From assembly GCA_021775805.1 (NCBI GenBank), contig JAJFHD010000004.1, positions 43,953 to 107,952 of the forward strand: a DNA stretch of 64,000 nt, read 5' to 3'. The notes under the pieces were generated by a model. It did no database searches. It was not told the DNA's origin and saw only the letters and a program-made list of their open reading frames with translations. A program made the position numbers and the translations under genes. Below, in pieces: positions 52,338 to 55,743 of the stretch; the first letter of the stretch is position 1; the number at the start of each line of letters is the position of its first letter. This DNA comes from Alphaproteobacteria bacterium. GTDB lineage: Bacteria; Pseudomonadota; Alphaproteobacteria; Rhizobiales; JAJFHC01.

Positions 52338-52455
52338 AGGATGCGTCGATGTAAGGTTGATATTTGCGTGTTTATGAATTACGTGCCAATGGTTAGTGTC
52401 GGTTGCTTTCGCTGACATCATTGTTTCGACATATTGGGCGGATAGAGCACTCCTC

Positions 52456-53148
52456 ATGGTACCAAAAATCCAAAGACAATTTGCGAGATTCCTGACAGTT
52501 GCGTCAGTGATTGTCGCGGCGGCTGTGATGCTGAATGGTGGAATCGCGAATGTAGGCGTGCAGGCTCAGGCCGCCACGTCAAAGGAGGCCTCCCTCAAGC
52601 CGAAAGAGGAAGATGCTGTTCGCGAGGTCGGCTCATACTTCAATACACTCAAGAGCCTGCAGGGTGAGTTTGTGCAGGTAGGGCCCCGCGGCCATATCTC
52701 CAGCGGCACGTTCTACCTGAGCAAGCCCGGTCGGTTGAGGTTCGAGTATTCACCGCCCAACCCGTTTCTCATCGTAACCGACGGCACCTGGCTGGTGGTC
52801 AACAACCGAAAGAAGAACAAGGCGGACTATTACCCGCTTTCCCAAACGCCGTTGCGTCTCGTGCTGTCCGAAAAGGTCAACCTTCTGACCGAAGCCAAGA
52901 TCCTTCACGTCCGCGAGAGCAAGGAAACGATTTCCCTTACCCTTGAAGATCGCGACCAATTGGTGCCCGGGCAACTGACAGTTGTCTATGACAACAAGAA
53001 AAAGCATCTCAAGCAGTGGGTGATCATAGATGGTCAGGGCCTGCGAACCACAATCTCACTGAAGAGTCTTCAAAACGGCATCGACGTCGACCCGTCTTTG
53101 TTCGTGGTAAAACTTCGCAAAGAAATCAAAGACCGCGAAGGCAAATAG
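52456..53148 (+). CDS. lolA: LolA-like outer membrane lipoprotein carrier protein
   Basis: LKSLQGEFVQVGPRGHISSGTFYLSKPGRLRFEYSPPNPFLIVTDGTWLVVNN; directly after ftsK. Confidence 0.92.
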   Translation: MVPKIQRQFARFLTVASVIVAAAVMLNGGIANVGVQAQAATSKEASLKPKEEDAVREVGSYFNTLKSLQGEFVQVGPRGHISSGTFYLSKPGRLRFEYSPPNPFLIVTDGTWLVVNNRKKNKADYYPLSQTPLRLVLSEKVNLLTEAKILHVRESKETISLTLEDRDQLVPGQLTVVYDNKKKHLKQWVIIDGQGLRTTISLKSLQNGIDVDPSLFVVKLRKEIKDREGK

Positions 53149-53237: not shown

Positions 53238-54596
53238 ATGGCTACCGGATCGAAGACCAAGCTCAAAAACTGGCTGCAGCAACGACGCGTCACGGAAGTC
53301 GAATGTATTTTTCCGGACATGTCCGGGATTGCACGCGGCAAGATACTGCCGACAGCGAAGTTTCTCGACACGATCGACCAAGGCACCTTGCGCGTGCCCG
53401 AATCGATTTTTGCCCAGACCGTCACAGGCAGTTTCATCGACAGCAAGATTCTGGATTACACCGAACCCGACGTCATCCTCAAGCCTGATCCCAAGACCAT
53501 TCGTGTCATACCGTGGTACTCGGAACCGACGGCGCAGGTGATCTGCGATGCCTATTATGGCGATGATACGCCGGTGGCCGTCAGCCCGCGCGCTGTATTG
53601 AAGAAGGTCGTCGACCTCTATGCCCAGCAGGGTTGGCGTGCGGTGGTGGCGCCGGAGCTCGAGTTCTATCTGGCGGCCAAGAACATCGACCCCGACTACC
53701 CCCTCGAACCACCGATCGGCGCCAACGGTCGGCCCGAAACCGGGCGCCAGTCCTATGGCATCGACGCCGTCAACGAATTCGATCCTCTGTTCGAGGACAT
53801 GTACGATTATTGCGAGGCTCAGGATATTGACATCGATACCCTGATTCACGAAGCCGGTGCGGCCCAGGTCGAGATCAATTTCAACCATGGCGACCCGCTG
53901 GAACTCGCCGACCAGGCCTTCCTGTTCAAGAGAACAGTCCGTCAGACCGCCATTCGCAAGGGTCTGTATGCCACATTCATGGCCAAGCCGTACCAGGGCG
54001 AACCCGGCAGCGCCATGCATCTTCATCAGAGCATCGTGTCGGTGAAAACCGGCAAGAACCTGTTCGGGGCCCGCGACGGCGGCCATACCGAGCTTTTTCT
54101 CAATCACATCGGCGGCCTGCAACAGCATCTGCAAGGCGCCATGGTGCTGTTTGCGCCCAACATCAACTCCTACCGCCGTATCATCAAGGAGATGTCGGCC
54201 CCCATCAACACCCATTGGGGCGAGGAAAACCGGACGGTGGGCCTGCGTGTTCCGGAATCGGGCATCGGTGCCCGGCGCCTGGAAAACCGGGTCCCGGGAG
54301 CGGATGCCAATCCGTACCTGTCGATCGCCGGTTCCCTGGCCTGCGGTTATCTGGGAATGGTCAACAAACTGGAGCCGACCGCTCAGATGAAAGGCAACGC
54401 CTACGACTCAAAACGTCATGTGCTGCCGCGCCACATGCTGGATGCCCTGTCGAAGTTCGAGCGGGCAAAGGAACTTCATGAGGTCCTGGGTCCTGATTTC
54501 GCGGTCGTCTTCGCCGAGGTCAAACACGAGGAACATGAAGCATATCAGCATGTTGTAAGTGCCTGGGAAAGAGAACACCTGCTCCTGAACGTGTGA
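53238..54596 (+). CDS. Glutamine synthetase family protein (GlnA3/PuuA-like)
   Basis: VECIFPDMSGIARGKILP..., APELEFYL, GSAMHLHQS, NRTVGLRVP, RVPGADANPYL. Confidence 0.92.
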   Translation: MATGSKTKLKNWLQQRRVTEVECIFPDMSGIARGKILPTAKFLDTIDQGTLRVPESIFAQTVTGSFIDSKILDYTEPDVILKPDPKTIRVIPWYSEPTAQVICDAYYGDDTPVAVSPRAVLKKVVDLYAQQGWRAVVAPELEFYLAAKNIDPDYPLEPPIGANGRPETGRQSYGIDAVNEFDPLFEDMYDYCEAQDIDIDTLIHEAGAAQVEINFNHGDPLELADQAFLFKRTVRQTAIRKGLYATFMAKPYQGEPGSAMHLHQSIVSVKTGKNLFGARDGGHTELFLNHIGGLQQHLQGAMVLFAPNINSYRRIIKEMSAPINTHWGEENRTVGLRVPESGIGARRLENRVPGADANPYLSIAGSLACGYLGMVNKLEPTAQMKGNAYDSKRHVLPRHMLDALSKFERAKELHEVLGPDFAVVFAEVKHEEHEAYQHVVSAWEREHLLLNV

Positions 54597-54675
54597 GATG
54601 GCGTTGGGCTGCGGGGATCACATTAATTTTTCGTAGGGTGTATTGAAAACCCGGCAGTCAGTGCATATTTACAGA

Positions 54676-54827
54676 TAACAGCGGTTGAATTGATTTTGAT
54701 ACCCCAATCGCCCCCCGCTTGTCAGGGTATCATATCAACCGCGGGTGTCGGCTTCCCCTCCCGACGCCATTCGCATGTAATGCGTGACGACGCCCGGCTT
54801 CCCCAAGGCCGGGCGTCTGACTTTTTG
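54676..54827 (+). ncRNA. Candidate structured sRNA with C-rich loops and intrinsic terminator
   Basis: Four consecutive hairpins: GCGGTTGA/TCAACCGC with inner GATACCC/GGGTATC; GGTGTCGG/CCGACGCC with loop cttcccctc; CGCAT/ATGCG; GACGCCCGGC/GCCGGGCGTC with loop ttccccaag plus T5. Possible -35 TTGAAA at 54643. Confidence 0.55.
54789..54826 (+). terminator. Rho-independent terminator
   Basis: GACGCCCGGC-ttccccaag-GCCGGGCGTC then tgactttttg. Confidence 0.8.
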
Positions 54828-54924
54828 AACACCGGAAAGTTAGTGGGTATAACCCGTGCTTTCGTGTGGTCATCGCAAGCACCCCGGCTAAAATGTGTCG
54901 CGATGACATAAAGCGGGATCCGGC

Positions 54925-55743
54925 ATGAAGATTTCTCTTATCACCTGGAACATCAATTCCGTCCGGCTTCGGATGCCGCTGCTGGAACAGCTCGCCGGCG
55001 CGCTCGACCCGGATGTGATCTGCCTGCAGGAAACCAAGTGCCCGGACGGCAAGTTTCCGTCTTCCGCGATCCGCAAGCTCGGCTACGACCACATGGCGAT
55101 AAACGGTCAGAGCGGCTATCACGGCGTGGCGATTCTGTCCCGGATACCGCTGACCAACATCGACAAGAAATCGTTCTGCGACATGGGCGACTCGCGCCAC
55201 GTTTCGGCCGATCTGGCCCTGTCGGCGCCGGCACAGTCGCCGATCAGGGTTCACAATTTTTACGTGCCCGCCGGCGGCGACGTCCCCGACCCTGCCGAGA
55301 ATCCCAAATTTGCCCACAAACTAGGATTTCTGAACGAAATGGAATCCTGGTTTCTCGACAAGAAAGCCGGCCACATCGACCGCATGGTGCTCGTCGGCGA
55401 CCTCAATATTGCCCCGTTCGAGCATGATGTCTGGTCGCACAAACAGTTGCTGAAGGTCGTGTCTCACACACCCGTCGAGGTCGAGCATCTGGAAAAGGTG
55501 CGGCTTTCCCGCGGCTGGGTGGATCTCATGCGCGATCATGTGGCCCACGACGAAAAGCTATACACGTGGTGGAGTTACCGGGCGCGTGACTGGTCTGCTG
55601 CCGACAAGGGGCGCCGGCTTGATCACGTCTGGGTATCGCCGGCGTTGAGTGACTTCGCAGGCGAAACCAGGGTCATCCGCGATGCCAGGGGATGGGAGCG
55701 TCCGTCCGATCACGCGCCGGTGCTGTACCGTTTCGAGACCTGA
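54925..55743 (+). CDS. xthA: Exodeoxyribonuclease III
   Basis: MKISLITWNINSVRLRMPLLEQL..., ICLQETKC, VGDLNIAP, RLDHVWVSPAL, SDHAPV. Confidence 0.94.
   Translation: MKISLITWNINSVRLRMPLLEQLAGALDPDVICLQETKCPDGKFPSSAIRKLGYDHMAINGQSGYHGVAILSRIPLTNIDKKSFCDMGDSRHVSADLALSAPAQSPIRVHNFYVPAGGDVPDPAENPKFAHKLGFLNEMESWFLDKKAGHIDRMVLVGDLNIAPFEHDVWSHKQLLKVVSHTPVEVEHLEKVRLSRGWVDLMRDHVAHDEKLYTWWSYRARDWSAADKGRRLDHVWVSPALSDFAGETRVIRDARGWERPSDHAPVLYRFET

Follow-up and report, generated by a model that had tools for sequence, protein, structure and literature searches.

A probable RusT-family small RNA between lolA and xthA in an alphaproteobacterium

The 64,000-nt stretch of alphaproteobacterial DNA analysed here (hereafter, the window) contains, upstream of xthA, four hairpins that very probably make up a genuine small regulatory RNA (sRNA). 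We consider it likely, with good confidence, that this organism has here its own orthologue of Caulobacter RusT, in an order other than that of Caulobacter, with a proposed promoter, mode of pairing and set of targets. RusT (CCNA_R0199) of Caulobacter crescentus is a 118-nt sRNA encoded between lolA and xth (PMC11005374), and our assignment to its family follows from the locus, the hairpin order and the loop-2 seed that the two RNAs have in common.

Four hairpins, the last a terminator, upstream of xthA

Folding of the window sequence gave four hairpins, the last of them an intrinsic terminator, at positions 54678-54826 of the forward strand, a stretch of about 149 nt whose 5' end we inferred from the promoter and from homologs and whose 3' end was set by the terminator. 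The original prediction had placed such a run of four hairpins between a glutamine-synthetase (GS)-family gene and xthA, and folding bore it out at that place. The folding energy was -65.8 kcal/mol, compared to a mean of -46.9 for 200 dinucleotide shuffles, none of which reached so low a value (z -4.69). The opposite strand gave a milder z of -3.4 and would end without a T-run. The features of the locus are as follows.

52396-53148, forward strand: lolA (Pfam LolA, E 7.5e-29), in other genomes the gene conserved on the upstream side of the sRNA
53238-54596, forward strand: glutamine-synthetase-family gene (Pfam Gln-synt_C), between lolA and the sRNA and not part of the system
54617-54621, forward strand: ATCAC, half of a palindromic site, CAC-N6-GTG, that is complete upstream of 14 homologs; the window has this half only
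54643-54671, forward strand: predicted sigma-70-type promoter, TTGAAA (54643-54648), 17-nt spacer and TATTTA (54666-54671), from the sequence and homologs
54678-54826, forward strand: the sRNA, from its fold, covariance-model homologs and synteny
54681-54742, forward strand: hairpin P1, with an outer 8-bp and an inner 8-bp stem, from the fold and an arm-swap test
54711-54717, forward strand: CCCCCCG in the loop of P1, more conserved in the order than any other block
54744-54768, forward strand: hairpin P2 with the seed loop, from stem covariation and comparison with RusT
54772-54784, forward strand: hairpin P3, CGCAT/ATGCG, short (5 bp), read from the sequence and in the position of RusT SL3
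54789-54826, forward strand: intrinsic terminator P4, with a TTCCCC loop and a T-run, from the fold and stem covariation
54925-55743, forward strand: xthA (exodeoxyribonuclease III; Pfam Exo_endo_phos), the conserved downstream neighbour

The outer stem of P1 pairs GCGGTTGA (54681-54688) with TCAACCGC (54735-54742) over 8 bp, and the inner stem, GATACCC/GGGTATC, extends to 8 bp (54697-54704 with 54725-54732) and is capped by the 20-nt loop CAATCGCCCCCCGCTTGTCA. Both stems predicted for helix 1 are present, stacked in one long hairpin, although the inner one has 8 bp where 7 had been proposed. P2 is an 8-bp hairpin in which GGTGTCGG (54744-54751) pairs with CCGACGCC (54761-54768) around the loop CTTCCCCTC, which as RNA reads CUUCCCCUC. 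The terminator hairpin of P4 has 12 bp (54789-54817) and is followed by a T-run at 54822-54826. Read from the sequence, the loops of the sRNA contain CCCCCCG, UUCCCCUC and UUCCCC, and the fold leaves UUCCCC unpaired at two places, as had been claimed. The sRNA is present as one copy in its own genome, and a plasmid BLAST search with its sequence gave no match.

Conservation of the hairpins and their loops

The original prediction had been staked on the hairpins being conserved in relatives that share the synteny; we found that they are, with covariation in hairpins 2 and 4. Across 62 aligned sequences, 96.2% of the cells in these two hairpins were paired. Shuffling the 3' letters lowered this to 85.6%, and sliding the partners lowered it to 42.5% or less; two-sided changes were present in 17 of 18 pairs (155 cells, versus 42 when shuffled). 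None of 500 shuffles reached these pairing and two-sided-change values. Taken separately, the P2 stem was 97.7% paired with two-sided changes in 6 of 7 pairs, and the P4 stem was 95.3% paired with such changes in all 11 of its pairs. As MAFFT aligns hairpin 1 poorly, we tested this hairpin by swapping its arms between species, and native arms exceeded the swapped maximum for both the outer stem (20.8 versus 13.1) and the inner stem (14.8 versus 12.0).

The loops, in contrast, are conserved in sequence. A run of five or more C followed by G is present in loop 1 of 60 of the 62 homologs, and loop 2 reads CCCUC(C/U)C in 59 of them. The TTCCCC of the terminator loop is less conserved than loops 1 and 2, with a run of four C in 41 of 62.

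Distribution and gene neighbourhood

A BLAST search of the order to which this genome belongs produced two convincing matches (L112 and L113), both located between lolA and xthA and with no GS gene. We built a covariance model (R1) from ten sequences, including further copies of the RNA at this junction, found beside xthA relatives, with the window sRNA in the seed alignment. This model, whose E-values (like those of all our covariance models) are rough, matched 109 of 398 genomes of the order, representing 59 of 141 genera, and did so nearly always once per genome. Methylocapsa aurea, Methylocella tundrae and an Aestuariivirgaceae genome are among the carriers that have a name, and there was no match in the tested genomes of Roseibium, Pseudovibrio, Stappia, Brucella, Rhizobium, Sinorhizobium and Mesorhizobium. 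Model matches below about 35 bits that have neither lolA nor xthA nearby (L206-L210 and several class-level matches) are probably false, and L206-L210 were left out of the set of 64 homologs that we analysed.

Homologs found in further families of the class combine a C-run loop 1 with a AUCCCCUCCC loop 2, and by carrying both loops they bridge the window form and the Caulobacter form. In addition, five congeneric species that lie outside the order (L242-L246) have a hairpin-rich element, scoring about 30 bits, upstream of xthA; in L242, the one whose upstream gene was read, a Peptidase_C26 gene takes the place of lolA. This element may represent a more diverged branch of the sRNA family. The combined distribution suggests an old sRNA that has stayed at a single gene junction throughout much of the order and in parts of other orders of the class, and this constancy of place makes its core function testable by comparison. 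Loop 2 does not vary, and loop 1 is constant in one branch but altered in another; evolution has thereby set up a natural experiment on what each loop does.

Within the fetched stretches, lolA is near 55 of 63 homologs and xthA near 42 of 63, with at least one of the two near 60 of 63; when the seven homologs first found via xthA are excluded, lolA and/or xthA adjoin 53 of 56. The gene order is lolA-sRNA-xthA in relatives and lolA-(GS)-sRNA-xthA in the window, where the end of the terminator is about 100 nt from xthA. A GS gene was near none of the 63 other homologs checked, so that the framing of the element by GS and xthA in the original prediction is accidental, and its conserved neighbour is lolA. 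Among the genomes checked, only this one has a GS gene between lolA and the sRNA.

A conserved promoter and an upstream palindrome

The predicted -10 box ends six bases 5' of the modelled RNA start. An equivalent promoter (TTGA..-N16-18-[TC]A...., with its end 2-10 nt upstream of the RNA start) was found at 42 of the 64 homologs, compared to a mean of 1.0 and a maximum of 4 in shuffles. Its recurrence in these upstream regions argues for independent transcription and against the RNA being a 3' UTR of lolA or GS. Upstream of the promoter, the operator-like palindrome CAC-N6-GTG is present in 14 of 64 regions (shuffles: mean 1.4, maximum 4); its full form is seen, for example, at L175, L189 and L194, as TCACGTTTTCGTGA about 66 nt 5' of the RNA start. 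The pattern proposed for NtrX is GCA-N9-TGC (PMC7240162), which differs from CAC-N6-GTG and was found in 1 of the 64 upstream regions, with no enrichment. There was likewise no enrichment of CAAN3-5TTG in these 64 regions.

Alternative explanations for the element

The strong inverted repeats and the GC-rich genome might suggest a chance structure, a repeat or a mobile palindromic element. However, the single copy, the fixed position across genera, the compensatory changes and the z of -4.69 have already refuted this explanation, to which we assign practically no weight. It also seems quite unlikely that the element does not act in trans and is instead the end of the upstream gene's transcript (a terminator plus hairpins for stability, or an RNA derived from the 3' UTR) or the leader of xthA. 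Although the sRNA lies on the same strand behind lolA or GS and ends in a terminator, and P4 by itself is an ordinary terminator, the promoter conserved directly 5' of hairpin 1 is difficult to reconcile with a transcript end, as are the conservation of loop sequences instead of stem sequences and the retention of the sRNA despite an intervening GS gene, or without adjoining xthA or lolA. A further point against this explanation is that the terminator ends about 100 nt short of xthA.

Several C-rich loops, each on a separate hairpin, are also what one would expect of the catalogued C-rich-loop sRNAs (alpha-r7, alpha-r8/MmgR/SisA-D, alpha-r14/NfeR1 and cuckoo/CcsR), which would repress mRNAs through anti-Shine-Dalgarno loops, and there is a weak resemblance to Rfam families in the window (CC1840, 27.4 bits, cut-off 50; ar7, 17.8 bits, cut-off 60) and in relatives (suhB, 30 bits, cut-off 41; ar14, 32.1 bits, cut-off 58.8). 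All of these scores, however, fall below the Rfam cut-offs, and we rejected membership in alpha-r7, alpha-r8 (suhB), alpha-r14 and CC1840 on this ground, in agreement with the earlier proposal that the RNA is distinct from alpha-r14 and cuckoo. A scan of the 64-kb window with Rfam 15 identified tRNA-Gly only, with no gathering-level match to the sRNA, and 20 further loci, including Caulobacter-type RusT loci, had no match at E<0.05. Furthermore, the published motifs are CCUCCUCCC and UUUCCUCCCU, in contrast to UUCCCCUCCC here, and the lolA-xthA locus is a different one. We therefore regard membership in a catalogued family as very unlikely, and prefer the RusT-family assignment. The 32.1-bit ar14 score belongs to L169:1511-1645, exactly over the sRNA, and may reflect distant kinship of the C-rich-loop families or convergence.

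Proposed mechanism and candidate targets

In Caulobacter, NtrX represses RusT, and iron chelation or zinc induces it (PMC11005374). RusT binds Hfq at SL3 (nt 72-87) and, via its SL2 seed, represses TonB-dependent receptors, OmpW, glutamine synthetase (glnA) and others (PMC11005374). That glnA is among these targets while a GS gene lies beside the sRNA in the window is possibly a coincidence.

Taking the locus, structure, conservation, promoter and seed identity that we observed as a starting point, we propose that the sRNA would be transcribed from its own promoter just past the lolA unit (here lolA-GS), and that transcription would stop short of xthA at a terminator belonging to the sRNA. Most likely, the hairpin-2 loop, with its C-rich sequence UUCCCCUCCC, would pair with G-rich ribosome-binding regions of mRNAs and repress their translation; the earlier idea that C-rich loops could pair with Shine-Dalgarno regions appears broadly right. 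By analogy with Caulobacter, from which the pairing mechanism, the Hfq dependence, the control by NtrX and iron and the kind of target are inferred, Hfq would assist pairing, and the probable targets would be membrane transporters and other genes turned down in iron shortage. As loop 1 and hairpin 3 differ from those of RusT, Hfq may bind elsewhere in the window RNA.

A genome scan for the perfect seed complement GGGAGGGGA within 12 nt of an ATG identified 6 sites, compared to 2 for a reversed control, and only one of the six precedes a long gene, that for cytochrome oxidase subunit I. In the leader of this gene (GAGGGAGGGGAAACTTCAATG, G000:C101:8080-8098, locus L348), GGGAGGGGAA pairs with the seed over 10 bp (-22.1 kcal/mol). 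Since a single seed-complement site is within chance, cytochrome oxidase subunit I is only a candidate target, although as a heme protein it would suit an iron-sparing regulator.

The fixed loop 1 leads us to a more tentative idea, to which we give somewhat less than an even chance: RusT of this order may have two seeds. Next to the ancestral seed in loop 2, the nearly invariant CCCCCCG presented by the long hairpin 1 may have come under selection of its own as another site of pairing, one that Caulobacter lacks and that either brings in a different set of targets or base-pairs with another RNA. We know of no RyhB-like RNA in many of the alphaproteobacteria concerned, for which the sRNA may provide a post-transcriptional regulator related to iron and the envelope.

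Comparison with known systems

The alpha-r8 RNAs (MmgR, SisA-D; Rfam suhB, RF00519) are also alphaproteobacterial and have a C-rich anti-Shine-Dalgarno-like core and a terminator in common with the window sRNA, but their core, UUUCCUCCCU, is single-stranded, the RNA is shorter, it is usually found beside an FGase gene, and the family has no Rfam match in the window. Like the window sRNA, the alpha-r14/NfeR1 and cuckoo RNAs (SmelA075, SmelA099, RS0680a) have several hairpins with C-rich loops, which are proposed to block ribosome-binding sites. Their loop motif is CCUCCUCCC, repeated (PMC3927594), and they are multi-copy, whereas the window sRNA is single-copy, has three different loops and lacks this motif. 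The alpha-r7 RNAs (Rfam RF02342) have a similar layout, with hairpin loops GUCCCC, CCCCUCUCC and CCUCC, but the low alpha-r7 score of the window sRNA comes with many broken pairs, and its relatives have no match. EcpR1 (divK-pleD/rpmG locus, loop UCCGCCGCAUCU) and GspR (SMc03844-SMc03845) were each rejected for a different locus and a different motif.

RusT is the closest counterpart. It is published as four stem-loops, the last a terminator, with a seed at nt 45-57 in SL2 (PMC11005374). To obtain the corresponding locus, we located genomes of Caulobacteraceae, presumably of the genus Caulobacter, by means of their PopZ (a query that we had verified with PDB 6xry), and retrieved from them the junction that lies upstream of xthA. 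At one Caulobacter-type locus (L314), the 118 nt up to the T-run fold into four hairpins at exactly the published positions, with GAUCCUAUCCCCU at nt 45-57, cytosine as nt 53 and a hairpin spanning nt 72-87. The seed 10-mer of this locus, UCCCCUCCCG, is identical to window positions 54754-54763, and C53 corresponds to window C54755. Repression by RusT is weaker when C53 is mutated, and for two targets it is regained with compensatory changes (PMC11005374). Both RNAs lie in the lolA-xth junction on the strand of these genes, have their own promoter (by position) and terminator, and present four stem-loops in the same order; the LolA proteins of the window and of the Caulobacter-type locus are homologous (31% identity, E 1e-31).

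The two RNAs also differ. The window RNA, at about 149 nt versus 118, is about 30 nt longer, and has little sequence in common with Caulobacter RusT beyond the loop-2 seed, stem 2 and the general layout. Its loop 1 is of the C6G-bearing type on a long two-part stem, whereas Caulobacter SL1 has ACCGACC and no CCCCCCG. Hairpin 3 keeps the position of RusT SL3 with no similarity in sequence, and the GS gene between lolA and the sRNA in the window is absent in Caulobacter. Caulobacter-type loci have TTGTGA-N5-TCACAA where part of the family has CAC-N6-GTG, and model R2 scores these loci at only 16-33 bits. Given these low scores, the differing loop 1 and hairpin 3 and the half-site palindrome, the orthology rests on locus, architecture and seed. 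As the window RNA has neither the 118-nt length nor close similarity to the Caulobacter homologs, we limit our claim to a RusT-like orthologue, outside the narrow Caulobacteraceae group.

The published RusT homologs are from close Caulobacteraceae only, and low variation was stated only within closely related Caulobacteraceae (PMC11005374); our literature search found no wider report of RusT beyond this family. The original prediction of a candidate new sRNA therefore holds in part: the RNA is unmatched in Rfam 15, and the distribution of the RusT family across the order and the near-invariant CCCCCCG of loop 1 are new here, whereas the locus, hairpin order and seed are those of RusT. As Rfam 15 has no family for either the window or the Caulobacter form, and as the RNA has these RusT traits, we place it in the RusT family, as a new and distant member with a second loop that is probably functional, and not as a new kind of regulator.
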